Origin: Physcia stellaris
Taxonomy: Eukaryota; Ascomycota; Lecanoromycetes; Caliciales; Physciaceae
Direction of reading: 5' to 3'
DNA: 64,000 bases
Assembly: GCA_018902385.1 (NCBI GenBank)
Contig: JABSSW010000001.1
Span: forward strand, 1,054,001 to 1,118,000
In this document: in pieces, positions 41,120 to 64,000 of the stretch
How the letters are laid out: each line of letters starts with the position of its first letter
Numbering within the stretch: the first letter of the stretch is position 1
The notes under the pieces: model-generated
The model's database searches: none
The model's input: the letters and a program-made list of their open reading frames with translations, nothing else
What the model was told of the DNA's origin: nothing
Made by a program: the position numbers and the translations under genes

Positions 41120-42072
41120 GAGAGGTGATGATGGGGAGTATGGTTTCGAGAGAGGGTGGGATAGATGGATGGATACCAAGTCACGGCGGGAAGGGAAGGC
41201 TTAAATCCGAAGATACGACTATCTTTGATATGAATCATAAGTTATAACTCGAATGTCTTGTCAAACTCTTGTATATGCTGCTTGGAAAAGCTTATTACTT
41301 TCATTATTTGCAGTGCACCCCCATGTGTGGAGTTGCTACGGGAAGAACAGGACAAGCACGAGCTACGTGCTGCTTGATCCTGTACATGCAATGTATGTAA
41401 CCGTCTATTTCGGGAAACGCAACTTCTTTGCTAGATCAATCTACAATTGCCCTATTGCGCGTCCTTGCTCCAGGGAATATTTCTTGGGGTTTTTTGGTAG
41501 ATGAAAGAAAAGCTTGATGAAATTCATCGTGTGATTGGTGGTGGTGGTGGGGAGTTGCAGACGGTGCCAAGCAACCCACCTGCCAAGACATAAATCGACC
41601 TACCTCGGAATTCCCGGTACGCCAAACTTGAACTTGCCTTGCTACCAGACACCTTCCTCCTTCATATCTACACTATTCTCAATAACCCTTCCAGAAATGC
41701 CTACCAACACTAACAGCACCAAGCACCAATACCCAGTACACGCGTGAATTCTATTCACCATAAAACAGCATTCCGCACCAAGTTACTGATCTGGTCGAAA
41801 TCTGCAACTTGTACGTGATTGATATCGCTTTCACCCACATCACATAGCCCGAGGGCCCCCAATCGCAAGGATAAAAGAGCCCTTTATTGATTTCATCTAT
41901 GTACCACCGGCAACACCCTTCACTGCGCCTGCAGATGCCACCAGGCTCCTAGCAGAGAGTGTGTTAATCATCCCAGCAACAATCACAAGCCAAATCAGAC
42001 ATCGAAACTTGTGGATCATTAGGGAAAGACGAAGAAGTCCAGGTGAGGGAAGCGATCGGTTGAGACAATAAC
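41120..42072. promoter_or_regulatory. Divergent promoter region, F-box / KAP104
   Basis: About 950 bp separates the two start codons. It includes a short TGG/GGTG-rich stretch near 41535-41555 and pyrimidine-rich sequence near 41620-41700. No gene is supported. Confidence 0.45.
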
Positions 42073-45031
42073 ATGGCGTGGCAGCCGGAGCTAGAGCCCT
42101 TGAGGCAACTCTCAGGCTACTTGAAGGATGCTCTCAGTGCATACGAACCGAATGCTCAGAAGCAAGCAACGCTGGTCAGTACCTCAGGCTCAATCATACT
42201 CCGGCAGCAGATTAGCTGACGCTTCCTGCCGTTGCATAGATGTTGAGTCAAGCCAAGACGTCCCCTGATATCACCAACTATTTGACTTACATTTTCGCCA
42301 ATGGACCTTTACTCCGCCGTCTCAACTTGGGCAATGACGATATGATTCTCATTAGAAGTTCGGCAGCGATAAATCTGAAGAACAGCGTGAGAGCCTCATA
42401 TACCTCTATCCCTGCGGCTGGTCAAGGCTTCATTCAAGCTTCCGCTCTTTCATGCCTACAGGATCCAAACCCACAGATAAGAAACTTCGCTGGCTCGGTT
42501 ATCACCGAAGTGGTACAACGCGGAGGTGTTCTCGGCTGGCCGGCTCTGTTGCCAGAACTGGTTTCGCTAGCTGGTAATGAGAGAGGTAACGCTGCAACGA
42601 CGACTCAGGAAGGGGCCATGGCCGCCTTGGCAAAGGTATGCGAAGACAATAAAAAAGTGCTGGATCAGGAGTACCAAGGCCAGCGGCCCCTAGTGTTCTT
42701 AATACCGAAGTTGCTCGCTATCACCCAGAGTCAACTTCCCAGAGTTCGAGCGTTCGCCCTGGCAAGCCTCAATGCTTTCATTCCCGAGAAATCCCAGGTT
42801 GTGCGCTTATCGCTCGATCCGCTCATGGCACATCTGTTCAATCTCGCAAATGATCCGAGCAATGATGTACGACGCAACGTCTGCCGTTCCTTCGTTCATT
42901 TGGTGGATGTAGCACCTGATAAACTTCGACCACATATGGCAGGACTAGTCGACTATATGATCCTACAGCAGCGAAGCACCGACGATCCAGAATTGGCTTT
43001 GGAGGCTGCCGAGTTCTGGCTTTGCGTCGGCGAGGATGAAAAGATGCGTCCGTCGCTAGCGCCTTATCTCCACAAGATTGTGCCCATCTTACTCGACAGT
43101 ATGATATATGACGAAGAAGATATCCTGAGGCTGGAAGGGGACGAAGATGATGCAGATGTTGAAGACCGAGCGGAGGATGTGAAACCCCAGTTTGCGCACA
43201 CCAGAGTTACGAAGGCAGCAACCAACGGGCAAAATGGCAACAACGTCAACGGGCAGGTTTCAACGCAAATCGTCAAGACAGATGACGGAGGTGATGATTT
43301 AAGCGACGGGGAAATCGAGGAGGATGACGATGCTGTTGATATTGACGATGTCGAAGACCGCTGGAACCTCCGCAAATGCTCCGCAGCCACTCTTGACGTC
43401 TTGGCATCGAATTTTCATGGGCCGGTTTTCGATGTTACTTTGCCTTACCTCAAACAAAACCTTCAACATCACGACTGGCCGTACCGAGAAGCCGCCGTGC
43501 TCGCGATCGGCGCCGTCGCAGATGGGTGCATGGAGACTGTCACGCCTCATCTTCCGGAGCTTATCCCCTACCTGATATCTCTCCTAAATGACAGTGAGGC
43601 AACTGTGAGGGTCATTACGTGTTGGTCTTTAGGCCGCTATTCCGGCTGGGCCTCGAAGCTGCCGAATCCGGACGACAGCAAGCGGTTCTTTGAACCCATG
43701 ATAGAGGGAATACTCACGAGGATGTTGGACAAAAATAAACGGGTCCAAAAGTCTGCTGTCTCTGCATTCGCCAGTCTTGAGGAAAAGGCCGCTTCAAGAC
43801 TGACAGCGTACTGTGCACCAATCGTACAGCAGTTTGTACATTGCTTTCGACGGTACAAGGATCGTAACATGTTTGTGTTGTACGACTGTGTACAAACATT
43901 AGCAGAGCATGTTGGGCCAGCGTTAGCTCGACCAGAAACAATAAGCCTTCTAATGCCAGCTATCATGGAACGATGGCAGAAAGTGTCAGACCAGTCGCAA
44001 GAGCTCATTCCAATGCTAGAGTGTCTCTCCTACGTCGCCACAGCGCTACGCACAGCTTTCCGCGACTTCGCTCTACCAATCTTCCAGCGCTGCGTTAGGA
44101 TCGTCCATCAAAACCTCGAGGATCACGTCAAAGCTATGAATGACACTCTATTAGACAAGCCGAACAAGGAATTTCTAATCGCCAGCTTGGATCTCCTCAG
44201 CGCCATAATACAGGCTTTAGGAGACCGCGACGGAGGGTCAGCCGAACTTGTTAGCGCATGTCAGCCTAGGTTCTTTGATCTACTCATGTTCTGCATGGAG
44301 GACGTCAGCAATGAAGTACGGCAATCATCCTATGCATTGCTCGGAGATTGCGCCGTCAACGTGTTTCTGCAGCTCCAACCTTTCCTACCCTCCATAATGC
44401 CTCTACTCACCAAACAGCTAGAACTCGAGAACATCCGCGATGAGGACTTTGAGAATGGCTTTGGTGTCATCAACAACGCTTGTTGGTCGTGTGGTGAGAT
44501 CGCCATTAAGGAACAGCAAAGTCTGGCTCCTCATGTGGAAAAACTGTACTACAGATTCATCGCCATTGTCAATAATCCCGAGATTCCCCAATCCGTCCAC
44601 GAGAACGCTGCCATCGCGTTGGGCCGGCTTGGTTGTTGGTACTCGGCCGTCGTTGCACCTCACCTGGGAGAATTTGCCGAGTCTTTTCTGCAGATCATGC
44701 GACCTATCGATGACAGTGACGAAAAAACTGGGGCAATATTCGGATTTAACATGATTGTACAGAAGAACCCTCGTGCCTTGGAAGCATGTTTGCTTGAATA
44801 TTTTCAAGCGAGTACTGCCTTTCGGAAAGTTGATATTGACCGTCGTGATCTCGAACAATCTTTTCAGAATGTCAGTATTCCTTGCGAACTCGGTTGAGGC
44901 CATCTACTGACAATTAGTACTTTGAATAGAATCTAGTAGGGTACAAGGCATTGATCCCGAACTTTGACGCTTTTATCCGCCAACTTCCACCTCACGACCA
45001 ATCAACATTGCGGGATCGATTCAAGATCTGA
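42073..45031 (+). CDS. KAP104: Transportin, karyopherin beta-2
   Basis: Nuclear import receptor for PY-NLS cargo such as hnRNP-like RNA-binding proteins; it is released by Ran-GTP. Exons 42073-42174, 42240-44870 and 44930-45031 give 944 residues, the usual length. HEAT repeats run throughout. The importin-beta N-terminal region includes LIRSSAAINLKNSV and NPQIRNFAGSVITEVVQRGG. A long acidic loop (GDEDDADVEDRAED and DGEIEEDDDAVDIDDVED) precedes WNLRKCSAATLDVL, matching the H8 loop that displaces cargo. HHDWPYREAAVLAIGAVADGC and GFGVINNACWSCGEIAI are further conserved blocks. The C-terminus reads LIPNFDAFIRQLPPHD, as in the family, with TGA at 45029-45031. Both introns have GTCAGT donors. Confidence 0.95.
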
Positions 45032-47907
45032 CGATCGCTGCGGGTATGGATCGGCCTCTCGAGGTCTGTGTGCACTTGACTTTGAACAACACTTAAAATG
45101 CGCTGTTATTACAACGGCATGTCTGCTCTGGATGCTCATTCAGCACAAAGATTCTGAATCGAGCTCTTGACGTGGATAAACCATAGCGTCATATTAGTTG
45201 GAAGCATAGCGATGGTAGCATGGCGTCAAGGAGCGTGTTTGGAAGCATTGGGTTGGCGTAATTCTGTGAATATGAAGCCAATACGTCATCAGAAGCTCTT
45301 GTTTTCGGAGGCATAAGTCGCGGTTTAACACAGGAACCCTGTTGTTCATTCTAGCCTCCGAACTAGAATACATCTGGGGAACGGTGATCTAGGAGCTGTT
45401 TGATAAGGTATTTTCTTGCGATAGCCATCGTAGGACATCCTAACAGGAGCTTCATTTTTGATAACTTGAAGGTGACGACGGTGCAAAAGATACAAACGTG
45501 ATACAAGCTGGGCGTTCATCCCGTATCTTAGCACAACGTCCTGCTATTTATCGCCCATTCTATTTCCTGCTCGACGAAATTGGCAGATTAGATTGACTGG
45601 GTTGTATGGCACAGTGTCTTTGGAGAAAAAGGCTTTCCGATGCGATGCGTCTACTGATGTTGTGGAACGAGCGGTAGATTTTGGTAAGCATTGGGCAAAA
45701 CAGTATGATATGGTGCAACTCCGGATTTGTTCCTCGCACAGGTTGGGCGAGGACCTGTACTTCGATCTGTTCGTTCCGCTCGATTTCCATTGATGGTAGG
45801 TCACATCAAGCCACAACAACTGCGGAGATCTCAATTTTACTACCCATTCGGTGCGTCTGTGCCGGAGAAGGTGCACTTAGGTTCGCATCAACGTCATGGA
45901 AAGGCGGTTCATCGCGGGTGTCTATTTATATGTTGCAGGGCCGGCGTCACGCAGCGCTACTTCATGCAACGTAATCGTGATGCAGAAGTATAATGTGACG
46001 GATGAGGCTTAGCGTCATGTCCCCCGACTGACCCAGCAAAATGGATCAATGCGGGTTTCCCCCAATGAAACCCACTAGCCCTGCCAAACTCTCTGCGACG
46101 CTGCGATGTCATAGAGTATGAGACAGGCTTGATGTTGAGGGCTCGATGACGCCTGAGGATCGATTGCGGCGTTTTCTAGAACACACGGCTGACATGGATC
46201 CCCTTCTTGACGGACCTGTCATGGCTTGCATTATTATCCAATCTTGTGTTGTACAACCCAGGCGCACGACAAGATCAAGCGGTCGGAACAGGATCTATTC
46301 TTAGGTAGGGCGGTGCTTGCGCCACTCGGCGGGTAGTCAGCACGAACATTTGACAACGGCTAACTTATAAGGTATCTTTCATCCACCATTGGTGCAACTG
46401 GCTCGCCAGAGCAAGCCCACAACCGTCATAACGACTTAAACCTCGAAAACACTCGACGAACACCTGACTTTCTCTTCGTATTCAGGCACGATTCCTAGGC
46501 GACGGATTGAGACATGGCCAACCCGAAGTAGATCTGCAGGTTCATGCTGGGACTCAGGAACAAGAAATGCTCGGCGAGACTTGCGCCTCGCTTAGCGACT
46601 CGTACCCCACTTGCCGACTCTGGAATGAAAATAACCTTGAGCCAGTGCTTCTACAGGACCACCAGCATCCCCCAATCCAGCAGAATACGAACAATGCCAA
46701 CAATAACAATATCGGAAGGCGCCTCTGCATAGGAAGACAATGTCCACTGTCTTTGGCTTCAGCGGAGTCGTGGAGTGTGTAGTATCGCCCCCAGGCTCTT
46801 TGCTGCTACCAGTAGTTGCTTTCGTCCCATGTGAACAGGGTGATCGCAGGCTCGGCCCGGTTGCGATTGCGCATGCAAAGGGGTGTTTAAAGGTGTTTGA
46901 AAGGAGTAGGAAAAGGCTAATAGATGTCCTTTAGCGAGAGATCAGAGTTGGGCCTGATGCTTAATAATAAGTGGTCGATTACTCGTTTCTGCTCCTGTTC
47001 GCGTGAGCGCAAGACGCGAACTCCGGCCAAGCATGCGTCAGGCATGACTTGACTTATTGTTTGGCACGAAGGATGTTCCATGCTCACCGACATGCCAACA
47101 AGCTACTGCAGAATATCGTCAAACTAATCGCTGCACTGTTACCGACTACCCTTCCCCAACTCGTGGCCTTGCAGGGGAGGCTGACCCAGCTGGCCGCTGA
47201 ACCCCCAGCCAAGACTGCTACCATACGAGACGACATTGACTTATTCGCCCCGTGCGACGTAAAATCAACGAGGGGGCTATGTCATCTTGCTCCTGACTAG
47301 CCCCGGCATGGTACATCGTTGCCGGACACCACGCTACCACATGTGCCCACGGAACATTGCGACCAGGCTAAGATAATCGAATCAACCTCCTCACATCGTG
47401 CAGGTCTATTTTTGATGCCTCAAATGGGAATGAGGTGAAGCTTATTGATATCTCGATCCATCCCATCTCACCCATCAATAAGACACCTGTACTTAACTGT
47501 CATCATTCCTGGAGAGACCACTCTCGGATCAGCAACTACACTCGTTACCATCTCACCAGACTAGCCATTCGTTCATACAACAGTAGGCACGTCGCTGTCA
47601 TCTTCCTCATATCAACCATTCGTTTCTTCTCCCGACTGTTCTATGATCCAACAGAAACGTGCCACACCATCCGCTCGCTTCCCCAAACCTCTTTGATTGC
47701 AGAATCTCTGTCCCAAGGCAGCCGACCCTGAAACACGCCGCTTGCCTGGAAATAACCGCCTGATCACCGCATTCTAGGTTGTCTAGCTTGGCAAAACGCT
47801 TGTGTGTCTTTGTTTCTGTTGTTTTTGATCGACGGGATTCTCGGACACCCGGAGCCAGGGTGTGCAACCGCAATCATTCCTTTAGCCAAACCCTCAACCC
47901 GCGGTAA
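45032..47907. other. Gene-poor gap of 2.9 kb
   Basis: No frame here shows a recognisable domain. The most open pieces are 45544-45876 (minus), 46507-46782 (+) and 47049-47300 (+); all are under 115 codons. Base composition is like the neighbouring genes and unlike the mutated block at the right end. I saw no tRNA, tandem repeat or transposon remnant. The last few hundred bases should hold the promoter and 5' leader of the Zn2Cys6 gene. Confidence 0.5.
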
Positions 47908-49798
47908 AATGGCCGGTCCAGGTGGAGGTCCTCCTCGGAAGAGTCATACCAAGTCCCGCACAGGCTGTAAAACGTGCAAGAAGAGGCACATCCGCTGTGA
48001 CGAGACTGTCCCTCAGTGGTAAGCCAAGTGGCGAGGTTATGTAAGGCGACTCGAAACTAACCATAGATTCAGTCGTAATTGCACAAAGCATAACTGTCGA
48101 TGCGACTATATGGACACTCCGCCAGCAGTGGAAGAGTCTTCGCAGTCTTCGAAGGTGCCAGATCTACTGTGGAGCCCGGAGATTGACAGCGAAATCAACA
48201 ATTGGCATCGCACCGGAGTCTTTCCTTTTCCTGAACTAGGGCTGCAGTCTTTCCAGCAATTCTTTCCTCTCTCTCTTATCGATCTACGACTGGTTTATCA
48301 TGTGTCAAGCATCTATCGAGATCTGCAACGTATCGATTTCGTCCATTGTACCTTGTGGGCCAGCGAGATACCTAGGTATTTCAAAATTTCCGCCACGGGC
48401 AAGTTCTATGGGACTGACAGTAGCATTATAGCTTCCTGGATGCTGCTCTAGGCCACGATTTCGTCATGAGCTCGATACTGGCTTTCTCTGCTACTCACAT
48501 GGCCTGGCAGACTAATAACACCGAAACAAAAAATCTGGCTTACTACCACCGGGGGTTGCGCTGAAGGGCCTGCACGGCGCAATTGGCAATTTCTCTCGAG
48601 AGAATTCAGATGCTATCTTGGCAGCCTCCATCCTTCTGTCGTGGCAAGCTGCTGAATGGTAAGACATTTGCACATTATGGCATGACTTGTGCTAACTCGC
48701 GCCGAAAAGGGGTGGCTGGACATCTCTCATGCGTGGTGTCTCTACGGTAGCTAGTCCTCTCGAAGAGTTTGCCGACCTTTCGCTAATCATCTTCAGGTCA
48801 TTGCTTCTATGAGCCCTTGGAAACATGAATCTAGACTTGCGGCATTCATCGAAAGGCATCCAAAATTCTTCTCTGGAGCATCCATGCAGTCAACGGCACT
48901 GGCTTTCGACCAAGAATCTTTGCTCTTGGCTGGCGATGCACTCCGGAGATTGGTAGCCTCTCCGCCTAAAAGCAATCGACTTTGTCAATGCTTGTCCGAG
49001 ATTGCCGCTTTCACCAACGATATCCAAGCTTATGGGGCAACCATGACAAGTGATCAGATCTTCGAGAAGCTACAGTCGCTTCGAGCTTGGCTGTTCTGGT
49101 TGCCAGTGGCGCTTGTACACGCTGAAAGAATCGACGATGCCGATCTAATCTTACTGGCTCAGCTTTACACCGTGGCATTAGCGGTTGATTCTTCCTTCCC
49201 AGAGCTAGGCGGTGCGGGCCTAGGGTCGTTAACTGCGGATGCGATCGAGCAGATTGATAGCAAGCTCAGGTATCGTCAGTCGTCCAGAATGTCACGCAAC
49301 CAAAACCCTGCAGAATTGGACGAGCTCATGCAGTGTTCCCGCATGATGCTCGCGAAATATCGACTGGAAAGCGCACAACATCCGTCAGCGCCGCAGATGC
49401 AATTGCATGGATCTCCGCAGAGTCCATACGGCTTCGGGCAGCTCAATCTTGGATCTCAACCGGGTACCCCTGGGCTTGCACCGAGCACGCCCGGATGGGC
49501 CCCTGGTACACCGGCAGGCTACCCTCCCGCCGGACTGGCTGGTAGTTTCTCGCTAATGCCGAACCACAGCTTGGAAGACCTCAGCGTCCCTGCTTCCCCC
49601 TTCCTTCTATACAGCGCACCAGTGTCCCGTCGGCACTCTGGTCTTATTGAGCCTCCACCTAGGCTCGACGATCTTTCCTTCGATAACCAGTCCCTGTCAG
49701 CATTCAGTTTTGGGGGGGATTCACCAGCCTATTCCCCAGGATTCTTGGATGAAGATCAATATTTTCCATATCGCGGTCAATCGCCGGGTTATCAGTAA
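47908..49798 (+). CDS. Zn2Cys6 transcription factor (Upc2-like layout) with an apparent frameshift
   Basis: Fungal DNA-binding regulator. The zinc cluster begins GCKTCKKRHIRCDETVPQ; an intron 48019-48072 splits a Cys codon and restores the spacing C-x2-C-x6-C-x6-C-x2-C-x6-C, ending CDYM. The next exon includes LQSFQQFFPLSLIDLRLVYH. An intron of about 57 nt (GTATTT at about 48375, TAG at about 48431) joins to LGHDFVMSSILAFSATHMAW. Then the frame breaks at a run of five G (48551-48555): family spacing HRG-VALKGLHGAIG needs one more G. Two short introns near 48660-48710 and 48752-48797 follow, leading to SMSPWKHESRLAAFIE and the C-terminal region, with a Pro/Gly/Thr-rich tail (GTPGLAPSTPGWAPGTPAG). 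Upc2/Ecm22-like and related members share this layout; the target genes are unknown. Confidence 0.75.
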
Positions 49799-50345
49799 GC
49801 GAGAAGCATTGAATCTACAGTACGAAATACAAATAGAGACTACACTCATCTCAGACACGCCATTATATGACTTGAAACGCGGATGAGCTGCATCGACGTC
49901 CCGCAACGATTTCCTAAATTTTTTTCTTTGTCTTACGATATTGGGCACTGGTTGCTGGACTTTTGCAAATGTACGACCAAATGAAGGATTAATTGACAGC
50001 ATTGAGCGAGGGAAATGATGGGAAAAGTGGATTTCGGAAGCATAGCGCTGGTCGGTCAAGGGCTGTATGATAGCTTTATAGCGTGGCGTCTAGAGATATA
50101 ATGTAATGAATCAGTCCCTCAACGCAATCAGAAACTTGCCTCAAATATCTCGTAAATACGGGTTTAATGACATCGCCAACTCTCTTATCTTTCAAAGCAC
50201 GCAATAAGTTTGTATGAGCGGTGCAGCGCGTCCCTGAACCCTAAGAAAAGAAAAAGAAAAGAAAACGAAAAGCTAGTTCGTCAACACCGTTGCTACCACC
50301 GAGCCTCCTTCCTCGTCCACTCTCGCACGTGGGGTCTTGTAGAGG
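49799..50345. other. Intergenic region, no supported gene
   Basis: About 550 bp between two same-strand genes, with an A-rich stretch near 50243-50272. It probably holds the promoter of the UCH gene. Confidence 0.5.
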
Positions 50346-51467
50346 ATGTCCGGGGGTTGGAACACGATTGAATCAGATGCGGCAAGTGGATCGCCTGGGT
50401 TTCTCAAGGTCCTGTCTCAGGAAGCTAATTTGGTTCTATGCAGGGGGTTTTCACTTATCTCATCGATAACCTGGGCGTCAAAGATGTCCAGTTCGAGGAA
50501 CTCATCTCTCTCGATGCCGACTCCTTGAGACAGCAGAGGTACGACTATCGAAGTCATCCACCTACTGTCAAGATGTCTGAGTCGTACATAGCCCTGTCTA
50601 CGGGGTAGTCTTCCTATTCAAATACCCGACGGGTGAGAAACCGAGCGACACGCCGAAAGACGGGAACTTCGACTTCGAAGCCGCGGAGAACTTCTTCTTC
50701 GCCGCACAAACAATCCAGAATGCATGCGGCACACAGGCTTTGCTATCCGTGCTTTTGAACAAGGAGGATCAAGTCGAGATTGGGCCACAGCTGCGAGAGT
50801 TCAAAGAATTCACGGGAGCATTTCCATCGGAGGTATGTCAGATACTGCGGTCCGTATCTATGGCTCTTCAGCCCTTAATAATTCATCGCAGCTACGGGGC
50901 GAAGCTCTGTCGAATTCCGAAATTATTCGCGACGTCCATAACTCGTTTGCCCGATCCTCGCCCTTCGTAGACGAGCAGCAGCGCTTGGCTACAGAAGAGG
51001 ATGATGTCTACCACTTCATCGCGTACACCTCGATAAACAACACCCTTTACGAGCTCGATGGCCTTCAGCCCGCCCCCATATCCCACGGTAGCTGCAGCTT
51101 CGATGAATTTCCGGACAAAGTCATCCCAGTCCTCCAACGGCGCATTGAGCGGTACCCCGCCAATGAGATAAGGTTCAACCTGCTAGCTATGGTACGAGAC
51201 CTACGATTACGCGCGAAAGAGATCGGAGACCAGGACTGGCTATATCGGGAAGAGCAGAAGAGGACTGCATGGCAGTGGGAGAACGCGCTGAGGAGGCATA
51301 ATTTCATTGGGTTCATTGGCGAGGTCATGAAAGGTGTTGTGGGGGCCAAGCTGAACGAGGGCAAGGGAGCGTATGACAAATGGATCGAGGAAGCGGAGGC
51401 CAAAACTAAGAGGAAGTTTGAGGAGAGGAAAAAGAAGGGCGAAGGTGAGGATTTGATGGAGACGTGA
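50346..51467 (+). CDS. Ubiquitin C-terminal hydrolase, UCH37/UCHL5 family
   Basis: A Cys-protease deubiquitinase that edits ubiquitin chains, proteasome-bound in species that have Rpn13. Exons 50346-50381, 50444-50538, 50592-50832 and 50892-51467 give 315 residues, close to human UCHL5. The order is WNTIESDAGVFTYLIDNLGV, VYGVVFLFKY, the oxyanion Gln and nucleophile Cys in AAQTIQNACGTQALLS, the catalytic His in DVYHFIAYTSINN, and Asp in LYELDGLQPAPI. The UCH37-like C-terminal extension follows: HNFIGFIGEVMKGVVGAKL, then a Lys/Glu-rich helix. All catalytic residues are present. The first intron uses a GC donor (GCAAGT). The sequence 1.6 kb downstream belongs to the mutated repeat block, yet this gene has normal composition. 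Confidence 0.93.
50382..50443 (+). other. GC-AG intron in the UCH gene
   Basis: The donor reads GCG|GCAAGT, the acceptor ATGCAG, with GCTAAT as branch-like element. Only this splice keeps ESDA joined to GVFTYLID; the nearby GT would shift the frame. Confidence 0.8.
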
Positions 51468-51989
51468 GACAAGGGGGCTGTTGGAAGGGCCGGCAGGTGA
51501 TGTACTTCGCGGGACCATGTTACTCATGTTTCTGAACATCTGCAGCTTCGATGGTCCTAAAGTCACTGTAGCAGTACAATGTGAATCCAAGGCTTCACCA
51601 TGTGATACCAGCTGTAATCCTTTGTGAGACTCTTCATATTTTGTGCTTGCTACTTGCACGGGCAAGCGGGAGATTCTTCAGCTGAGACAGTAGAGTCCAA
51701 TCCCAACTATTACGTACAGATACGTATGGCAACCTCGAATTCTGATCATGAGCAACGAATTGCCTTTGAGCGGAAATGATAGGATGAGTAAGTAGGTACA
51801 ACAAGATGTCACGACCGCGCGATGCTTTTCTGGGATGTTTCTATACTGCAGCCGTTTTGTAATTATAGTACCGTTAAATACGTCTAGCTCAGCTCGGATA
51901 ATCTGATGTTGGAGAGAAGTAACAGGAAATTGATTGGAGGACCAATTGACAGATTGCACGTGACTAGTTTTAAATGTTTGACATTCGGC
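51468..51989. other. Intergenic region between UCH gene and mutated repeat block
   Basis: About 520 bp with normal dinucleotide content, including CC and GG. No gene is supported. The composition changes just after CGGCC at about 51986-51990. Confidence 0.6.
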
Positions 51990-52463
51990 CTTTTACATAA
52001 TCATCTGTAGCATTCTTCTGTTTAGTCATAATTGAAATCATTTTACATCTGTTTCATTGATTCTGATAATTGATTTCATTGAATCTCGATTTCGTACGAT
52101 TTACATCTGTGCTAATTATTCTTTTTTCTGATGTTCATTCTCGAAAAACGATTGACAATAAAAATCGTCGTTGATCGCTCATTGTTTATTTTCTAAAAAC
52201 AACAAAATCGAGCTTTTTTACTATACGACAATCATTTTATCGATTGTTTATCTTTTCGAACGACGAAATCTTCTATATCACTACTATCAAATCTCGAAGT
52301 TTCAACTGCATACGATCTGAATTGACGACGAGATTCAAATCAACACGTTGCATTTTTCGTTGTTGAATTTCTCGAATTTAAATCTGTATATTTTCGAGTT
52401 GTTTTTTTGATTTGATATTTTGCATCGTTTGCAAACAAAACATCAAACATATTTTCAAATCGA

Positions 52464-55400
52464 TTGCTGAAATTTTCATTACGAATAATGAAAAAGAACG
52501 ATTACGAAAAACTGTTATTATTGAACAAAATAATTTTTGAAACAATTCAATCAAAACGCATATTCATAAACGACATCAACACGAACATTATATATTGTTC
52601 AACGATCAAAACATTTTTTCTTTACGTTAATGATCAAAAAATTCAAAAATATTATATTGAAAATTACAACGAATTGCTCGAATTGCGAAGTCTTTCGATC
52701 ACACATATATTACGATTTCAAAACTTTTTGCAACGATTGCAAATTTTGAATTACATTTACGAGAAATACAATCAATGAAAATTATTTTCATTTCATTTCG
52801 AAAACATCTACGCAATTTGCAATCGATATTTTTTTTTTCAAAATCTCAATCAACAACGTTCATTCATTCTACTCGTCAATTCTCACGCAAAATGTTTAAA
52901 GAATTTGACGATTTTATGCAAAGATTTCAATGATTCGTGAATCTCAATCACGAACTCAAGCATGAAAATTTGACGTCTGAAAAATACATATTGCAATTTT
53001 GAATTTTGTTCGTTGAAACGTTCAAAAATTGAATTGACAACGATAAAAAAGTTCAAACGTTGATTAACAAAGAAAAAAAATGTCATTGAAAATGACAAAA
53101 AAAAGTTCAAAAAAATTATCTGCGATAAATATTTTGTCAAAAAAAAATTCATTTTCATTGACGACGAACGCATCGATCGAATTTTGAATACAATTCAACG
53201 AACAAATGAAATTTTTCGAAAATATTACGAGCGATTCAACAAAATCTTTGTCGAAAACGACGATCAAAATTACATCGTGAACAACACGTTGACAAAAAAT
53301 GAACGCATGTTTTTGATTTTCTCATCAAACAATTCATCAACGATATACGAAATTTGAAATTACGACAACGAATGTATGCTAGATATATCGAGAACATGAT
53401 CGCAAAAATGAAAAATTTGACAAAAATTTGCGTTTTAACAAAAAAGATGTTCAACGTCATGCAATTTGAAAAACGTCTAAAATTTCAAACTTAAAAAACA
53501 ATAAAGAACGAGCGATTTAAAATTTTCGAATTTTATTTGAAACAGTTGAACTCGATCGATTTCAACGTCAAAACAAAAATAGTCAAAGTCGTGCAAAATG
53601 TGTTGATTGACAGAGAATTTTCTATCGACGTGATATACAACAACAATCGACGTTTTCAACGACAATCAATCAAAATCTCGAGTAACGAACGTATTCAGAA
53701 AATCAATTTCGTCGAATACACAAAATCATTTATTTCAAATATTTCGAGATTGCAACAATACTCAGAATACTTTTTTCAAAATTTTCGAAATCAATCACAA
53801 ATTGTCATATCATTTTCTCGTGACGAAATCAAATGAAAAAAACAACGTGAAAAGACAAATCGAAAATTCAACGTTTAAACTCATTTCAATCGTTTTATCA
53901 ACGAAAATGTGACGTACAACAAAATAAAACACGATATTTATTGTCATACATGCGACGATTGTGATCATATCTTCAAAGAATGCACATGTAACGAGCATCA
54001 GAAATTTATTTCGATCGCAAAACGTCGTTTACAACAAATCACTGCATACAGATTACGTGAAAGAAATTATTACAATTCGATTTTTATACAATCAAAACAA
54101 TTATTTTCAAATATATCATTTGTTTTTACATCATATCAATCAAGATTATACAAATCAAACGAATCAACAATATCATTTTCGCAATCGAATGTATTTCAAC
54201 TTTTTGCGAAATCAATCACATATTATATCGAAATATTCGAAAATCATTTCTTTGCAAATTTCGTCGCATCACTTTTTCTCATCGATTACATATATGAAAA
54301 CGACGATATTTTTGTCAATTGTTGCGAGTTTGCGTTTCGTTTTTTCACAATTGACATTTCAACGAATTACATTGCGAATATCGATACAAAGAACATTTTC
54401 TTTTTTTGCAATTCATTTTGTTTTTCTTCAATCAAATATCATCGATTCAATCGTTCGAACTCAACACTTTGCGATAAACGCAATAAAAAAAAAGTTAAAA
54501 AGAATAATGATAAAAAATCGAATAAAAACTCAATCAAATTTCTCGCGAAATCTTTTGCAACAATTTCGAAACGATCGAAAAAAAAAATGAAACAAAAAAA
54601 CGTTAAAAAGACTTTGAAATTTATTGCGAATATGATTGATCGACAAAAAATTTCGATTGAAAAATTGTTGTTGAATCAAACGATTATTTTGTCGATATTA
54701 CATTTATTTCAATTATTTTCTCATTTTCGCGATGAAACGAAACGTCTTATTAATGCATCTCGAAAATTTCGCAAAAAGAAAATCGAGAAAATCAATCAAA
54801 CAACGACGTCAATGTTCAAAATCAATTTCACATTCGTTCGTTCGAACAAAAATAAACGCGTGCAATGAATAGTCAAAAAATATTATAAAATCGTGAAAAT
54901 CATCAATAGTGCATATGAAATTCTTTGCATATTTTACAAAAATTCGAAATTTTTTCGCATCGATTTATCGTTTGAATCGATCAAAACAAATCAAAATTCG
55001 AATTTTATTATCATCAATGCAAAACTCGCGTCGAACATGAAATTGAACGTTTATTCATCGAAATTGCTCGATTCTAACGAAATGCGCATGATGATGATCA
55101 ATGAAAATCGTCATGAATTGAAATTTTGAATTATTTTGAACATCGAAATTGAGAACATTAAACGTCAAATTTGAATTTTCGTCAACTCAAATCACAATGA
55201 CAACAATACGAAATTGTTACTCGATTTATTTTGATTTCAATCGATGCACGCACAAATTGACATCAAAAACAAAAAAATTCAAATAAAAAATTTCGCTCAA
55301 AGTGAAATGATCAAAAATATCAATTTCAAAATCAAAATTTTTGATTTGACAAAAATGAAACACGTTCATAATTCGAATATTTCATTTGAACGAAAAAAAA

Positions 55401-55939
55401 TTAACGTACAAAAGACGTTCGAACGTATCATCATCAAAAAAAAATCGTTTTCAATGATTTCGAGTTCGAGAAAAATTTGAAAATTCGAATAAAAAGTTTA
55501 ACGAATTTTTTATTTCAAATTTTGATTCAGAAAACGCGAATTTTCAATAGATTTTGTTGACAATTTTAAAGAAAACTCAACGATGAAAATGAAAAACAAA
55601 AAAATTTTCGTCGACTCAAAAAAATGATATATCAACATTTGAATTTTTGCGTAAACTATTCGAATAAAAACGTCGATACATGTGAATCGTCATTTCGTTG
55701 ACACGAAACGAAAAATACAACATTCAAAATCAATAACGCAACATTACAATCGTTCAATGATTTCGATATCGAATTCGAATGCAAATGTGAAATCAAATTC
55801 GCTTGTATATTTCATTGAAATCGTCAAAAAAAAATTCGCATTTACAAAGTTTTTGTCAATCAAACAAATGAATCAAAATGTTGTTGTTCGTTCGAGTACG
55901 TTTGCATATTTCATTGAAACGAACAACAAAATAAATTGA
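52464..55939 (+). pseudogene. Degraded gag-protease region of a first Ty3/gypsy-like element
   Basis: Fragments in one orientation (about 52464-52778, 53537-53836, 53909-54868, 54893-55129, 55244-55480, 55682-55939), each ending in TGA. The 53909-54868 piece carries a Cys/His cluster HTCDDCDHIFKEC, like a decayed CCHC knuckle, followed by a basic region. The pieces at 54893-55480 resemble an LTR-element aspartic-protease region: an INAKLASNMKLNVYSS block and, after a TGA, a SMHAQIDIKNKKIQI block where proteases of this class have a strand ending after the flap. No reverse transcriptase follows before about 57.5 kb, so this element is truncated or its 3' part is unrecognisable. Assignment rests on pattern memory only. 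Confidence 0.5.
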
Positions 55940-57514
55940 AATCAAAATTTTCGATGATTTACTCAAGAAACGTTTTCATAGACGAGAAATCAAATTTTGA
56001 ATTTTTTACTATTCGTCGCATTACTCGTCGCATCATTGACGATACAATGTTTTCAAATTTTTTAAAAAAATGAATCAAAAATGAAAAAATCACGTTGAAT
56101 GACGTCATATCGAATGCAAATATGCGATTGAAAATTTTGCAATTTATTTGAACATATCGTGATGTGAATGCGAAAAAGTTGAAAAATATATCGATTATTG
56201 ATTTTATTGTACATCGAATTTGTTTTCGCTTTGATTTGAAATTTTACAATGCAAAACAACATCGATTCACGTTTGAAAAAAAATGATGATATCAAACAAT
56301 TATACAGAAAAGTTTTGAAATCGACATGTACGAACGTATCGTCATCGTCAATGATCGCATATCTCAATGAAATGTTGCATCTATTTTAATATTCAAAACA
56401 AAACAGATAAAATCAAAATTGTTACAAGCATGTCTGACAGATAAATCTGACAAATAGATAGACGATATAATAGATGATTGAGCAAATAAATCTAAATCGA
56501 ATTATATTTTAATTCTTTGACGAAATTAACGTGATTTGAAACTTGACGTTCGCACATTGTTTGCAATTTTATCATTTTGTACATATTTGTTTTTGCAGAT
56601 TTATTGTTTTCGTTTAATTAATCAATAATACGTTTATTCAAACACGATTTATGATATTACAATAAATTTTCAATTTTTATCGTTCGTCGAGATACGCGAG
56701 CGCTCAAAAATAAAATTTCAAATCGATCAAATTTTTTTGACGTGTTAGAAGTCTGTCGACTATGAAACGAAAATCTGTCTGACGATTGTCAATGACAGAG
56801 TCTGAAAACTAAACGTGTTTGTCGTTGAGAAATAAATCATTTGTCATTATAGCTTTACAATATATATTTCGAAACTTCTTCGTAGAATTAGCAATCAAAT
56901 TTTTTACATCTTTTCACACATTGTTTTTGACAATTTGATAACATCATTCTATCACATCAACGTTGTTTGCATCATTGATTGCAGCAACATCATCAAGACT
57001 CTGTCAGTTTTGCAGTGCATTGTACGCAAGTTTGTCAATTTCTTAAATTTTATTTTTTGTCGTTTTCGCTCTTTTGATGTCGCTGATGCTGTAAATTTTA
57101 CGTCAATTCTATCTATTTGACTGTGAAAGACTTTCATTTCACTTTATTCTATTCTTCGTTTTATCAGTCTGTAAAAGACTTTTCTCATTGCATTTCTGTC
57201 ACTGTACGAGTAATCTGTCGAAAGCTTTCGTCGATCGAAAAACATTCACAGCTAGCTAAATCAGCAGAAAGATTTTCACAACAAGTCAATTGTAGCTCAT
57301 TCTGACGTCAATCTTCAACGAGATCATTCAGTTTGCGTGATTCATCTACGACTTTTTGCAAATCAATCACGTTTTTTGCTCGTTACTCGACGATATTGAT
57401 CGACGTACGATGAAAATTCTGATCGCTAAAATTTTCAAATTTTTCAGAACTCGAGTCAGCGATTCTGCTTATTCATTTCAGTGAATCAACGACGTCGTTT
57501 CGTTTCAAAACGTT
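55940..57514. other. Spacer between the two elements, possible LTR material
   Basis: About 1.6 kb of mutated AT-rich sequence without a recognisable domain. It contains several TCTGAC/GTCTGA motifs and might include an LTR and leader of the downstream element. I could not match it to a second copy inside the window. Confidence 0.4.
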
Positions 57515-58339
57515 TTGACTCAATTTCGTTTTGATATCGAACGCTTTCGCAACTCGAACGTCTTTCGAAATTTTTTGATCAAATTTTCAACTGTAATCAG
57601 TTCAGAATTCAGTGACTCGATTTCATTTTCGATTCTTCGTCTATTCAGATTAGAAACGTCAATCTCGTCAATTTCATCAATATCGTCTGATGCTTTTTTT
57701 TCAAAAAGATTTCGACGCAATAGCGTGTCGAAAGTTCAGATTCTCAATTTCACATTTTCGTCTGTAACACTCAGCTATTCATCTATTATCACGTCAGACA
57801 CGTCGATCGATTCTGCATCTGATTTCAATTCTGTCAACATTCGTGATATTTCAGCTGAGAAAACTATTTACACACAACTCATTGACTCTGCCATGTCTGA
57901 TCAAAGACAAAATCAAGATCAAAATCAGTTTGATTCGACTATTCAAACAATCATTACAGCAACGATCACTGCAATCGTTACTCAAACATTTGTCGATTTT
58001 ACAGCACAACTTCAACGTTTTCAGCAAAATAATATCGAAGATAACAACGAACGTGATAATCGACGTTTTTCTGACTCTGATTCTGATCTTTCGAATGAAG
58101 TTGCGACTGATGCTGATGACGAGAAATCAATTTTGAAAAACTCAAAAAATATCGACTTCTTTGATTCTCGTCGTGAAAATGACAAAAACAAAAATGTCAT
58201 TGTCAACGTTGATCGACATATCTACTACAAAAATGTATTTGTCTTTATTGACAAACTTAAAAATTTGAAAAAAAATTCGTTTGATCACAAAATGCGTGAA
58301 CTTATTGCCGAATGTTTACGTGACGATGCTTTCATCTGA
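57515..58339 (+). pseudogene. Gag-like remnant of the second Ty3/gypsy-like element
   Basis: 274 codons open, ending in TGA. The region is acidic and Gln/Asn-rich, then has a HIYYKNVFVFIDKLKNLKK block typical of fungal gypsy Gag. The translated stretch has no Gly, Pro or Trp at all, a direct effect of missing GG and CC. The Gag frame continues beyond the TGA at 58337 to about 58700. Confidence 0.6.
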
Positions 58340-58978
58340 CACTCACTGAAACTAAATGAAACTGAAAAAAATATGTTTCGTGATGCATCGATGAATCAAT
58401 GATGTCGTGATCTGATACGTCGATTCAAAAAACGTGACTCACAAATTCTCAAGAATCTGCAAACTGAAAAATACATTATGCAAAATGTTCGCAATGATAA
58501 AACGTTTAAAATTTACGTGCAAAACATCATGCGTCACTTTAAAATCGTCGAATTCAATTCTATTTACAATCAGCTAATCATGACGTGAAATAATTTGAAT
58601 TTCAATTTCAAAATGCAAATATCTGAATCAATCACGACTACTATCTTTATTTCATTCTTCGACTCGCTTGACGCCAAAGCTAGTATTTGACAGAAAATGA
58701 CTGTTCATAAATCTATTCAACATGTCAGCTCTAGTTCTGATCAGAGTAAACAACGTCAAATCAGTAAACAAAATCGTGAACGACAAAACGACTATCAACA
58801 GCAATCTGACGCTGACGACTTTCAATTTTCTTACTCTTCGTATGAGTATTGATCATCATCAGATTACAACTCATATCAGTATCAGAATTCGACGTTTCAG
58901 AATAATGCTTATCAGAAATATCAGAAATCTCAATATCAGTTCTCAAGCGCATTTCAAAAAACATTTGTCGTTTTTGTT

Positions 58979-59605
58979 TTGTCAATTGACAGACAATTTT
59001 TGCAACTGATTTTCGAAAACGCGTCAAATTTCAAATTCAAAAATCAATCACAACGTCGACTAGCAAACGACACAGAACAAAATAATCGAAACGAATTTGA
59101 CAATCGTGACGACAAGACTAGAATTTTTGTTGCCGATCAAAATAACAACGAAAAAGAAAAATCTGTGAAAGATTTCCACAATGAAAAGAATGAAAATTAC
59201 TATACTGAGAACGAAAATCTGAATTACTACAATTCGAATCAGAAAAATGAAACTTTCGTCAATTTCACTGCGTCAATAATAGTGATCAAATCATCGCTAT
59301 CTCACTGTCGTCGATGTAAAAAAACTTTCACATCTAACAACGAGCTACATCGTCATCTTCGTGTTGATTGTAATTTGATCTCTTCAGAAAGATCGAAATT
59401 CTTTAGCGACGTCGAAATCTATTTTGTCAAAAATGTCAGCTCATTTACAATCGATGCTACGAAAGAAATCAACGAATCTAGTCAATCGAAAATCGTCACG
59501 TCTGTTGAATTTACGAGCTCATCTACTTCGTTTGAATTTATCATTATTCGCTTTAACGTCGACTCGTTCGCAGATATTGACACGAAATACGAATTTCGTG
59601 ATTGA
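58979..59605 (+). pseudogene. Gag/linker remnant with a preserved C2H2-like finger
   Basis: 208 codons, very acidic and Asn-rich, then CRRCKKTFTSNNELHRHLR (about 59310-59367) which keeps C-x2-C-x12-H-x3-H-like spacing. As I recall, such a finger is common between Gag and protease in ascomycete gypsy elements. The following codons lead toward the protease and stop at TGA 59603-59605. Confidence 0.6.
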
Positions 59606-60361
59606 AATTACGTCAAAATCAAAATTTCACTTGTCGTAATCGTCGTGTCAAAAAACGTGTGTCTGAACATCGATGCTAACGTTTCATTTATGAATCGAAA
59701 CTTCTTCAAAGCACAGACACTCAATATTCTCATTCGTATCATGATCTCGTCACTTCAAATTCGTGATCTAAACACTAATCGACATGAAAACTGAAAATAT
59801 GTCATATGTGATATTCACATGTCTGACACAAAGAATGATCAGAAAATCACGTCGTTGTTCAAACGCGAGATTTATTTCGTTGACAATTTGAAAATCAACA
59901 TGCTTCTAAACAACGACATCATTGAATTCGAAAATTTCGCTATCGATATGACTAAAAAACACGCAATGATAAATAATATCGACATAATCATATCATTGAA
60001 AATACGTTTTTTCAAATTGACGATTCAACGATCTGTTCATTTCAAAAAAATTACAATCATTTCGTCACATGTCGAGATGATCGTCGTCGTTCATCATGTT
60101 GAATTGTCGACTACAAAAAATTTTCTGTTTGAATCGAATAACAATCTCAATTTCATTTTGTATGCACATCTCGTTGACGCGTCTACGAAATCTATTGTTG
60201 TACGCAACGATAAAAAATTTTCAATCATGATTTCTAGAAATTTTCGACTAGACAAAATATTTGAAATTGACTTTTTTAGTGACTTTCATATCGATATCGA
60301 CGATGAAAATGTCAGATATCTCGTCGTCAAAAAATCAAAATTCACTCACAAAAATGATTGA
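59606..60361 (+). pseudogene. Aspartic-protease remnant
   Basis: Across stops, the frame shows a decayed active-site block (LNIDANVSFMNRNFF, about 59662-59706), then VICDIHM and LKINMLLNNDIIEFENFAID, which resembles the region around the second strand of retropepsins. Catalytic Asp is kept but the Thr-Gly beside it is lost. It ends in TGA at 60359-60361. Confidence 0.55.
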
Positions 60362-61151
60362 TTCAAAAAGCTCATTTTCGTTTGCGTCGTGATTTACGTC
60401 GTCGTTGCTGCAATCGATAGTAGTTTTTCGATTACGTTTGTCATCTCATCGTCGCTAGTCACTCTGTCACAAACATCAATCGTCACATCGTCTGTAATCA
60501 TTTTGTCACAAACTTCGATGTCAATTGCTGAATTGCGAAAAATTTTCGCAATCAAAATCGATGCTTAACGATTTCGAGAAATTTTCTACAAACGTTTCTA
60601 TTTCGCTAGTCGAAATCGTTTTGTTTAACGACGTTATCGTTTACAATTTCGACGAGCTAAACTCATTCGTCAAAATTGTTGAAAAATTTTCGACGTTTTG
60701 ACAAAACATCGATTTTGTCGAAATGTCGAAAAAGAATTGAATGAAAATATCATTGAAAAATGACTGAAAGAAGCGTGTAACAAAAAAAACAAAAATGTAT
60801 TTTTTGAATGCAAAAAATCGAAAATTGATAAACAAAACTTTCGACGATTTGCATCGCATTGATCGAATGTTCTGAATTAATCAATCAACGTCATTTTTTT
60901 TTGCTTCTGCGTTTGAAAAGCGTTGACGACGAAAAAAAAATCGTGTAATTATAAACATTAGAAATCTCAATGTCATAACACAATTTAACGCATATTCGCT
61001 ATCATTGCAAACAGATATTATAATCGCAATGCGAAATTGCGACTACATATCAATCATTGATTGCTCAACTTTTTTCTATCAATGACGAATTCATTCAAAT
61101 GATCGACACAAACTTATTGTCGTCAATCATAAAGATCAGAAAAACTTCAAC

Positions 61152-61505
61152 GTGATCGTCATGAATTACAAAAACTCATCGACGTACGTGCAACGTCAAA
61201 TTGATCGACTGTTTCGCGAATATCGTCATTTTGCCAGAACTTATGTGAACGATATAATGATATTCTCTCGTACAAAAATCGAACACGAAACTCATCTGCG
61301 CAAAATATTCTCAATATTAAACAAAAACAACATCTCGATCAAGCTCATCAAGATTTTTCTGAGCTATTCATCAATCTCACTTCTCGATCAAAAGATTGAC
61401 TCACTCGATCTAATCACGTCCGAAAAAAAACTCAAAACAATTGTCAAATTTCGATTTTCTCGTATTTTTCGACAACTCGAAACGTATCTTGACTTGACTG
61501 ACTGA
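61152..61505 (+). pseudogene. Reverse-transcriptase remnant
   Basis: The stretch includes FARTYVNDIMIFSRTKIEHE, in which the RT box YVDDI has become YVNDI, followed by a HLRKIFSILNKNNI block. The upstream part of RT (about 60362-61150) is too decayed to read. The changed Asp and several TGA codons make it inactive. Confidence 0.75.
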
Positions 61506-61628
61506 CTACGTGATTACATCGCTCACTATGTTGACATTTTCAAATCGTTACAAAACAAAAAGACAAAGTTTTTGCGTAACGAATTTATTTGCAAAAAATG
61601 TTAGACGCGTCTATTTTCAAAAACACGC

Positions 61629-62150
61629 GTGCAGCATTCTACGACAGAAAAATTGATTTCGTTCGATGTTTTGCAAATCGTTTTGACAAAATCTTTCTAT
61701 TTAATACATTCGAATTTCAAACGTCAATTATTCATTGATTTGAATGTTAGCAAAAAATTCGACTTCGATGTCATGCTATACTATGTCAAAAAAATTTTTT
61801 CGAGTCAAACAAATATCTTTTCGTCACGTTATAAAATCGATACTTTTTCTTAGTCGATTACTCATCGATGTCGAGACAAAATATTGATTCATTGAATTGA
61901 AAATAACAAACATTGTGTGAATATTCAAAAAAAAAAGACATATTGTCGAAATTCGTCGAACAAAACAATCGTCTATATTGATCATGAATTTGCATTCGAC
62001 ATTGCTAATCAAACAACGATGACAACAATCTCGATCGACAAGCTCAATTTACGCTTTGTTCGCGCTTCAGATTACATTCAGCGTTTCAATCTCGATATTC
62101 GACATAAGTCAAACAAGCAGCACATTGTTTTTGACGTTTTGTCACGTTGA
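61629..62150 (+). pseudogene. RNase H and connector remnant
   Basis: Two open pieces, 61629-61853 (ends in TAG, the one clear non-TGA stop) and 61917-62150 (ends in TGA). LFIDLNVSKKFDFDVMLYYV resembles the start of RNase H; RVRASDYIQRFNLDIRHKSN-like spacing (here FVRASDYIQRFNLDIRHKSN) precedes the VLSR end typical of gypsy RNase H. Confidence 0.6.
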
Positions 62151-62305
62151 TCAGTGACAATATCAACGCGTCAATGATCAAATTTTGATGAAAATGAACT
62201 TGATGTTTTGTTCACAATTTCACTAATCGAAATGAAAAAAACTTTCGCAATCGAATATTCGATGACTACAAGACAGATTTAAATTGACAAAAGATCAGTC
62301 AAGTA

Positions 62306-63523
62306 TTGAATGCTGACGACGAGAACGTCGCAAAGCTGTCTTTTTATAAAAAAAAAAATGATTTGATTTTTCGTTCAAATGATTTTATCATTGATGATCA
62401 TGTTTACGAATTTCGTCGACTTTGCATTTTTCATTTCGTTGTATCAAACATTTTACGATTAATTCATGACGATGAACATTCGAATTACGCAAAATGTTTC
62501 GAAAAAATGTTCGTTTCATATTATATTCGCGATTTGTTTCGTTATTTGCGTGATTATTTAAAACATTGTTCGAAATGTCAAATGTATCAAATCAAAAAAC
62601 ACGCATCGTATGATTCGTTACAATTCATATTAATTTCATCGATTTCATTTCATACAATCATCATTGATTTCATTTTGATTTTATTTGTTTTCGATGACGA
62701 ATTGAATATCGCGATGTTTGTCATTTGCAAATTCACGAAACGATTCACATTCGTTGTCGACAAAAAAACTTGATTTGTCGCTGAATGAAAAATCGCGTTA
62801 ATCGACAAACTAAATATTGTTGATTGAAATATATCGAAAATCATAATCTCGAATCGAGATCGCAAATTTCTGTTTGATATGTGAACAACAATCTTCAAAA
62901 ACTCGAAGTTCGTTTATTTTATTCAACTGCATATCATTCTCAAATTGACGATCAATTCGAACGAACTAATCAGATGATTGAAATTGTTTTCGATTCTATC
63001 TGATTACAATGAAAAATTCAATTGAATGATTTCAAAATATTGTTCAGATTGCAACGTCATTTTAACAATTTCATTTTGTCACTACTCACAAAACATTCAA
63101 TGAAACGTTTTACGAATTTATTTTTTTGCAATTTTGAACATGTTGCGTCAATTCGTTACATTTGATTTCATTGACGATTTGAAAAAGTTTTTCGCAACTG
63201 ACAATCGAAAATTTTTCGCAAAAATTTTTTTCAATGCAATTATTCGTGTTCGTTTTGAAATGATTGACGTCATTGCATTTGTTCAAATGATCAACAAATA
63301 TTATTATGATCGCAAACATCAATTTTTGTTCATGAAAATTGACGATTATGCATTGATTAAATTGCATCATGATTACAACATATCGACAATTGAAATTTTC
63401 GATAAAAAATTGAGTCAACAATATATCGATTTTTTCAAAATTCTTGAGAAGATTGATAATCTGACATATCGATTGGAATTTTCGAATCACCGACGTATAC
63501 ATTTTGTTTTATTCATATTGTGA
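62306..63523 (+). pseudogene. Integrase remnant with C-terminal region
   Basis: 62306-62773 carries the H-H-C-C zinc-binding region (IHDDEHSNYAKCFEKMF, then LKHCSKCQMYQ) and the start of the catalytic core (SFHTIIIDFILILFVFDDEL, first Asp kept). After 62773 the frame continues through several TGA codons at positions where family members carry Trp. 63134-63523 shows the late integrase region (LIKLHHDYNISTIEIFDKKL, then SQQYIDFFKILEKIDNLTY). The protein cannot be made as it stands. Confidence 0.75.
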
Positions 63524-64000
63524 AATCTGTTCTTTCATCAATGAACGATTTTTCAATCGTTCGCTCAAATCAGCCAAATTTTGTTTTCGTTGAAAAAAGA
63601 CACGAATCGAAGTCAAATTATGAAAAATTGAAAAATTTATCAACAAACGTCAAATCAAACGTCGTAACGACGAGTATTTTGTCAAATGAAAAAAATTGAA
63701 AATCACAATACGATGAATGACGAAATTTATCAGAACTCGACGACGTTCAAAATTTTGTACAGAATTACGAAAACGTTTTGCGTTCAACGATGTTTTTGTC
63801 AAATCGTTTGCATAAATTTTTCATTTTATCGATCAAGATTATCATTTCGTTCAAGTTTTTTCGATTTTAAACAGTTTTCGCAGTCATTTCATTGATTAGA
63901 AAATTTTTCACAATTATTTTCTCGACGTCGACGTTTGTCAATCAATTTTCAACAAATCAACGATTCGCGATCGTTATTTCACGTAAATCGAACACGACAT
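63524..64000. other. Continuation of the mutated block to the window edge
   Basis: Low-GC sequence with the same dinucleotide pattern. It may hold the element's C-terminal (chromodomain-like) region or the start of its 3' LTR, but I cannot recognise either. Confidence 0.4.

Follow-up and report, generated by a model that had tools for sequence, protein, structure and literature searches.

Mutation of C to T before pyrimidines in repeated DNA of Physcia stellaris

A 64,000-nucleotide stretch of the Physcia stellaris genome (assembly GCA_018902385.1, contig JABSSW010000001.1, here C1:1054001-1118000), referred to below as the window, carries genes over most of its length and ends in a block of decayed retroelement DNA (window positions 51990-64000) in which CC and GG are nearly absent. 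The question raised by this locus is which process erased these dinucleotides and kept CpA and CpG. An earlier note, made from the letters alone, had proposed that C had been heavily mutated to T on both strands of the block, mainly where a C and partly where a T follows. Alignments of repeat copies and a polarized comparison of ribosomal DNA (rDNA) agreed with that reading, for which CpY (Y, pyrimidine) is the better label: the 3' neighbor of the C is decisive, on both strands, with CpC hit more than CpT and both far more than CpA and CpG. The assembly comprises 43.97 Mb in 147 contigs, and statements about published systems rest on excerpts of the sources cited.

Sequence context and direction of the changes

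Observed/expected ratios (o/e) were determined for all 16 dinucleotides in the block and in the rest of the window. In the 12,011 bases of the block, CC was counted nine times (o/e 0.03) and GG once (o/e 0.00), far below expectation and close to the few CC and single GG that the earlier note had estimated, versus 3021 CC and 3125 GG (o/e 0.96 each) in window 1-51989. CT (n = 386, o/e 0.57) and AG (n = 239, o/e 0.41) were both depleted, while CA (n = 947, o/e 1.28), TG (n = 679, o/e 1.26), and CG (n = 693, o/e 2.54) were retained; TA occurred 582 times (o/e 0.40) and AT 1440 times. The G+C content was 30.4% in the block versus 49.6% in window 1-51989. This comparison of block and flank rules out chance or biased composition. 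All ten surviving CC or GG sites lay within 57891-63574, and six of them were GCC, so a 5' G seems to protect CC slightly.

The indices in common use for repeat-induced point mutation (RIP) gave no signal, as had been predicted. TpA/ApT was 0.40 in the block versus 0.70 in genes, and (CpA+TpG)/(ApC+GpT) was 1.35 versus 1.24. Since the usual thresholds are above 0.89 and below 1.03, respectively (PMC3897900), they call the block unmutated; the case described in the excerpt of that source is RIP-positive by the usual indices.

Copy-to-copy differences were tabulated by neighbor in 76 high-scoring segment pairs drawn from 12 regions; the columns used were those whose neighbors agreed, and both strands were counted. 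In these alignments, which overlap and are not independent, C/T differences affected 196 of 254 CpC columns (77%) and 4869 of 6216 CpT columns (78%), versus 3561 of 23146 for CpA (15%) and 2106 of 20712 for CpG (10%). The changes thus fell before C or T, and CpA-to-TpA, which would have spoken for ordinary RIP, was not the main change. The 5' neighbor had little effect, and the second C of CCA was changed in none of 35 cases. Columns with transversions conformed to the rule as well: 17% of A/C differences and 72% of A/T differences preceded a pyrimidine, with a background of 50%. The degree of loss was graded among copies of one sequence, and in five alignments C/T and G/A changes were interspersed, both strands being hit alike.

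The less mutated copy in contig C43 illustrates the pattern most directly. Compared with the window copy, 25 of 30 CpC sites differed, every one being C in C43 and T in the window; 288 of 362 CpT sites differed, 224 with T in the window and 64 the opposite way. Few CpA and CpG sites differed (22 of 562 and 16 of 471, respectively), and the pair showed 702 transitions and 8 transversions.

The direction of change was determined on a relic of rDNA. The sole 5.8S match found, among 39 of 2644 candidates scored, sits in a dispersed, CpY-mutated rDNA unit in contig C41 (from about 41.1 kb to 51.0 kb or beyond), which lies inside a 457-kb contig and not in an array. At positions strongly conserved (upper case) in the Rfam consensus rRNAs, with poorly aligned blocks excluded, conversion to U was found at 73 of 78 CpC and 46 of 78 CpU sites, and at only 1 of 58 CpA and 0 of 62 CpG sites (Fisher test, CpY vs. 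CpA plus CpG, p = 2.5e-43; CpC vs. CpU, p = 4e-7). Conserved A or U was unchanged at 458 of 466 positions. In CCA and CCG the second C was unchanged in 27 of 27 cases, which means that the first C of CC is hit, as set by its 3' neighbor.

The small-subunit rRNA gene of this relic (C41 41001-51000; L044, L042, L045) also contains extra stretches of about 60 to 330 bases, which may be relics of rDNA introns. Lichen-forming ascomycetes, and some others, commonly have such introns; no intron family was listed by Rfam in the C41 relic at E 0.001.

The CpY rule predicts that stop codons should arise via TGG to TGA and less via CAA or CAG, and the excess of TGA in reverse-transcriptase remnants agrees with this. 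For RVT_1, 150 of 527 candidates were scored, giving 150 hits with 250 TGA, 3 TAG, and 33 TAA stops; for RVT_2, 150 of 165 were scored, giving 137 hits with 401 TGA, 3 TAG, and 101 TAA. The pooled 287 hits thus held 651 TGA, 134 TAA, and 6 TAG.

Stop-free RVT_1 hits were located in C52, C5, C12, C39, C57, C11 (twice), C24, C7, and C31, and stop-free RVT_2 hits in C69, C8, C42, and C7. Six of these 14 lay in open frames longer than 800 aa, with C5 and C12 scoring equally. They may represent escaped elements, recent elements, or other reverse-transcriptase genes.

Edges of the block and spread through the genome

The block consists of decayed long terminal repeat (LTR) retroelement DNA with copies elsewhere in the genome, and the domain remnants collected in Table 1 bear out the earlier view of it as a decayed retroelement array. 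Its left edge is sharp: the final CC/GG before the block lies at 51989, and none follows until 57891. The first ~83 bp of the LTR, which adjoin unique DNA, retain CC/GG (51911-51989) although they are repeated, and so do the outermost 83 bp of the C33 copy at one end. In the 8-kb copy in C57, both ends retain CC/GG (94 and 76 bp), with six CC/GG between 6650 and 14400; in the less mutated C43 copy, 25 of 55 CC/GG lie within the outermost 250 bp. The block extends beyond the window end, in contig C1 to at least 1138000 (at least 20 kb more), and the two stretches downstream of the window (L022, L023) held two CC/GG in 20 kb, with CT/AG low to zero.

Table 1. Features of the window (window coordinates)
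Feature	Position	Strand	Remarks
Gene-bearing flank, internal control	1..51906	.	CC/GG normal, o/e 0.96
CpY-depleted block	51990..64000	.	CC/GG nearly absent, CT/AG depleted, CA and CG retained
Outer LTR of retroelement	51907..52132	+	starts TGTTGGAG; matched over 223 and 226 bp by second copies in C57 and C43
Remnant reverse-transcriptase frame (RVT_1)	61086..61505	+	E 1.9e-8
Remnant integrase zinc-binding domain (Integrase_H2C2)	62288..62773	+	E 4.9e-8
Remnant Tf2-1-like SH3 domain, Ty3/gypsy-type integrase	63104..63523	+	E 2e-6; 28.2 bits, slightly under the curated cut-off of 30
Argonaute gene (ArgoN, ArgoL1, PAZ, ArgoL2)	20179..22485	-	RNA-silencing gene, 30 kb from the block

A 2-kb query returned 17 matches: one is the window, six are close copies (88-98% identical, one of the six partial), and ten are distant and partial. 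At all 17 match loci (L005-L021, 13 separate places including the window), the o/e of CC and GG was at most 0.10. Twenty further 10-kb stretches, about 0.2 Mb chosen rather than random, were taken around copies and downstream of the window. AT-rich kilobases, defined by G+C below 0.36, made up 160 of the 200; 127 of these 160 contained no CC or GG, 149 had at most two CC+GG, and the highest count, 39, was found in a border kilobase. In the AT-rich kilobases, CT/AG o/e spanned values between 0.00 and about 0.9, with CpG o/e mostly 1.9 to 8. CpT is also a target, its o/e falling as low as 0.00 in some kilobases (L022, L023, L041), and L041 held zero CC+GG in 10 kb. Each of the 38 kilobases at G+C 0.42 or higher had 72-198 CC+GG, and two more were intermediate in G+C. 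Within the window and the chosen stretches, AT-rich DNA was mutated and adjoining genic DNA was spared.

A 17-kb stretch including the genic edge occurs twice at 96-98% identity, in the window contig (window numbering 50961-68190) and in C68 (1-17275). Its genic edge differs chiefly by single-base gaps and its repeat part chiefly by CpT/TpT, and the pair represents either a duplicated segment or two haplotypes.

Candidate enzymes and explanations of the pattern

Methyltransferases of the RID, DIM-2, or Masc1 type had been suggested as genes to look for, and a PF00145 profile search of the assembly gave four matches in three genes, two of them RID-class and one DIM-2-like. The DIM-2-like gene (L002) has GSPCQ, ENV, and a DUF7893 domain. 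Both RID-class genes have PPCQ, with EQT in motif VI of L003 and EET in motif VI of L001; both triads are described for Masc1/RID enzymes, EET being reported for B. cinerea Rid and P. destructans (PMC6709928). L001 and L003 could be read to a motif-X-like NAVPP via short GT-AG introns whose junctions could be placed in more than one way, and in the catalytic core the two predicted proteins share 40% identity (174 aligned positions). For both, the Protein Data Bank listed general C5-methyltransferases and no RID-type structure by name. Among the genomes compared in one study, RID-type genes were detected in Ascomycota and in no Basidiomycota (PMC4352252). The assembly also contains a MAT1-1 alpha-box gene, which allows for timing in the sexual cycle. 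By themselves, the RID-class, DIM-2-like, and MAT1-1 genes would indicate Pezizomycotina, very probably a filamentous ascomycete, and the EET triad hints weakly at Leotiomycetes.

C:G to T:A transitions on both strands, as in RIP, were found here, and the putative RID-class genes are present. The preference for CpA/TpG and the raised TpA/ApT of canonical CpA-type RIP were absent (1 of 58 CpA sites in the rDNA; TpA/ApT 0.40). The process is accordingly classed as working like RIP and, because of this difference in context, as distinct from the canonical CpA type.

The explanation we consider probable is a RIP-like, repeat-directed process acting in the sexual cycle. Repeated DNA would undergo C-to-T mutation on both strands where C precedes a pyrimidine, fastest at CpC and more slowly at CpT, with CpA and CpG left nearly untouched; LTR retroelements and the dispersed rDNA unit are marked in this way, and adjoining genes are spared. 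The process would sense duplication and, as in Neurospora, act in the sexual cycle. Its catalyst would be a RID-class methyltransferase (the EQT or the EET paralogue) with altered target recognition, in which the reading of the base 3' of the target C had moved from A to a pyrimidine; the DIM-2-like enzyme would be the second choice. The direction of the changes, their CpY context on both strands, their occurrence in the AT-rich stretches analyzed, and the sharp edges are seen in the data; duplication sensing, sexual timing, and the identity of the enzyme are what we infer. Relics such as L041 stay free of CpY, which suggests repeated action.

Several points weigh against this explanation. That one of the three putative methyltransferase genes encodes the catalyst is suggested by their presence in the genome, and repeat sensing by the pattern in the chosen stretches and the window. 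A 0.95-kb stretch outside transposable elements (50961-51906) matches the start of C68 at 98.1% identity, with 3 substitutions and 15 gap columns, and is not CpY-mutated; the pair may be allelic or an assembly duplicate, but a genuine duplication here would have escaped mutation. TAA stops are fairly frequent (134 vs. 651 TGA), and 10 of 150 RVT_1 and 4 of 137 RVT_2 hits are stop-free, so some elements may escape. In the poorly aligned rDNA blocks alone, where conserved A or U was unchanged at just 59 of 82 positions, conversion to U affected 5 of 10 CpC, 4 of 12 CpU, 4 of 15 CpA, and 0 of 2 CpG sites; with these blocks added, the totals become 78 of 88, 50 of 90, 5 of 73, and 0 of 64, respectively. 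Strand-coordinated runs, the signature of a single RIP event, were absent from the five alignments in which they were sought (z -1.0 to -1.7), so single events are not discernible. Finally, CpT dominance alone has already been reported in other fungi.

An unlikely alternative, though one to be taken seriously, is slow methylation followed by deamination, that is, vegetative mutation by a DIM-2-like enzyme of CpY specificity, sustained in heterochromatin, in place of a burst-like premeiotic RIP. Dim2 of Zymoseptoria tritici promotes mitotic C-to-T mutation, although at CpA (PMC8016269). The DIM-2-like gene is present in the assembly, and old relics remain CpY-free (L041), as upkeep predicts. 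However, the near-total loss of CpC that sets in no more than about 75-95 bp from an edge left untouched and the 702 transitions against 8 transversions between the C43 and window copies look fast and targeted, and ordinary 5-methylcytosine decay removes CpG first. Plain CpG methylation decay, with CpG lost and TpG/CpA gained, is rejected by the CpG o/e of 2.54 and by the 0 of 62 CpG sites mutated in the rDNA.

A sequencing or assembly artefact, in which a modified C in CpY is read as T, is very improbable. A result taken from a single assembly, an rDNA relic that is the only unit found (with the 5.8S scoring given above), and a C68 copy that differs from the window mostly at CpT (145 of 225 C/T columns) would all fit it. 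It is opposed by the graded loss between copies of one sequence and by the position of the lone rDNA unit within a 457-kb contig with no array; moreover, to our knowledge, common sequencing platforms do not turn whole C classes into T. The transversion columns do not decide this question.

Slighter still is the chance that retroelement intermediates or repeats were attacked by a cytidine deaminase of the AID/APOBEC type. The repeats do show C-to-T changes, and APOBEC3G acts on CC; however, it alters the second C, and the APOBEC context is the 5' neighbor. Here the context is 3', the second C was changed in 0 of 27 CCA and CCG sites in the rDNA and in 0 of 35 CCA in the copies, both strands were hit alike, and the rDNA relic shows that more than retroelements was affected. 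APOBEC3G-like targeting is thereby largely refuted. APOBEC_N (PF08210) had no match in one Pfam search of the assembly, a weak negative, as the control was also empty. Of the two pathways that the earlier note had named, a methyltransferase is thus favored by the ruling 3' neighbor and the three candidate genes, and the deaminase has lost ground, with that weak negative on the same side. A base composition simply inherited within a single odd retroelement lineage, with no mutation involved, would be compatible with the window block taken alone and has practically no chance otherwise: the rDNA relic carries the mark and refutes a single odd element, a copia-type reverse transcriptase (C26:529578-530273) lies in L037, CpC-free but for one site, while the window remnants are gypsy-type, and copies of one element vary in degree.

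Comparison with known systems and meaning

The RIP-like process proposed here resembles RIP of Neurospora crassa (RID, DIM-2) in the C:G to T:A changes of repeats on both strands, in the candidate RID-class and DIM-2-like genes, and in the rDNA relics, which are also hit in N. crassa (PMC5555474). The order of preference there is CpA > CpT > CpG > CpC (PMC5496416), so the least preferred site of N. crassa is the most preferred here. Repeat-directed C-to-T mutation is likewise seen in crosses of Trichoderma reesei; there, however, CpA and CpG come first, about equally, and CpC last (PMC5496416).

CpT to TpT is common, and sometimes predominant, in Botrytis, Sclerotinia, Magnaporthe, Monilinia, and Anisogramma, fungi that carry one or two RID genes (PMC4352252, PMC8022979, PMC10998396). 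In these, CpA is also a main target, except in Monilinia vaccinii-corymbosi, where CT to TT is dominant and the sole context named (PMC8022979); a spared CpA is described for none of them in the excerpts of these sources. CpC to TpT double mutations accompany CpA in Monilinia (PMC8959702). In Stagonospora nodorum repeats, CpC and GpG are depleted (PMC2621366), but so are CpA, TpG, and CpG, and CpA to TpA dominates, whereas CpA and CpG are kept here.

In Rhizoctonia solani AG8, CpC is, of the four CpN mutation classes, the one with the closest spacing, 214 bp, followed by CpG (370), CpA (422), and CpT (491) (PMC4014442). Those data, however, concern heterozygous inter-nuclear single-nucleotide polymorphisms over genes and repeats alike, which their authors read as CpG-biased, and the excerpt describes no erasure of CpC. 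Basidiomycetes (Microbotryum, rusts) share context-specific C-to-T hypermutation of repeats, at CpG or TpCpG (PMC4352252), unlike the present case, in which CpG is enriched. Mutation by Dim2 in Z. tritici is also methyltransferase-linked and affects repeats, but in the CpA context (PMC8016269). In the open-licence PMC literature searched, in excerpts, no RIP with CpC as the prime target and CpA and CpG spared was found, in line with the earlier note, which knew of no such fungal process.

A 2025 kingdom-wide survey of 1,239 proteomes concluded, in the excerpt consulted, that CpA is the preferred target common to RIP-like defences (PMC12543289). CpC-saturated repeats that keep CpA and CpG contradict this generality as it is worded there. 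The target dinucleotide of RIP can apparently be swapped nearly completely, and the damage is altered with it, stops arising mainly via TGG to TGA instead of via CAA/CAG to TAA/TAG. The two putative RID-class paralogues in one genome offer material for mapping target recognition. Indices of the TpA/ApT type, which are used for genome surveys, have a blind spot for this pattern.

We know of no eukaryotic methyltransferase with specificity for a 3' pyrimidine, CpC above all. It is plausible, though somewhat less likely than not, that a C5-methyltransferase of the RID class, which might be the EET paralogue, reads a 3' pyrimidine in this way, that target choice evolves by divergence of paralogues, and that genomes scored as RIP-negative by TpA/ApT may hide saturated CpY-directed RIP.

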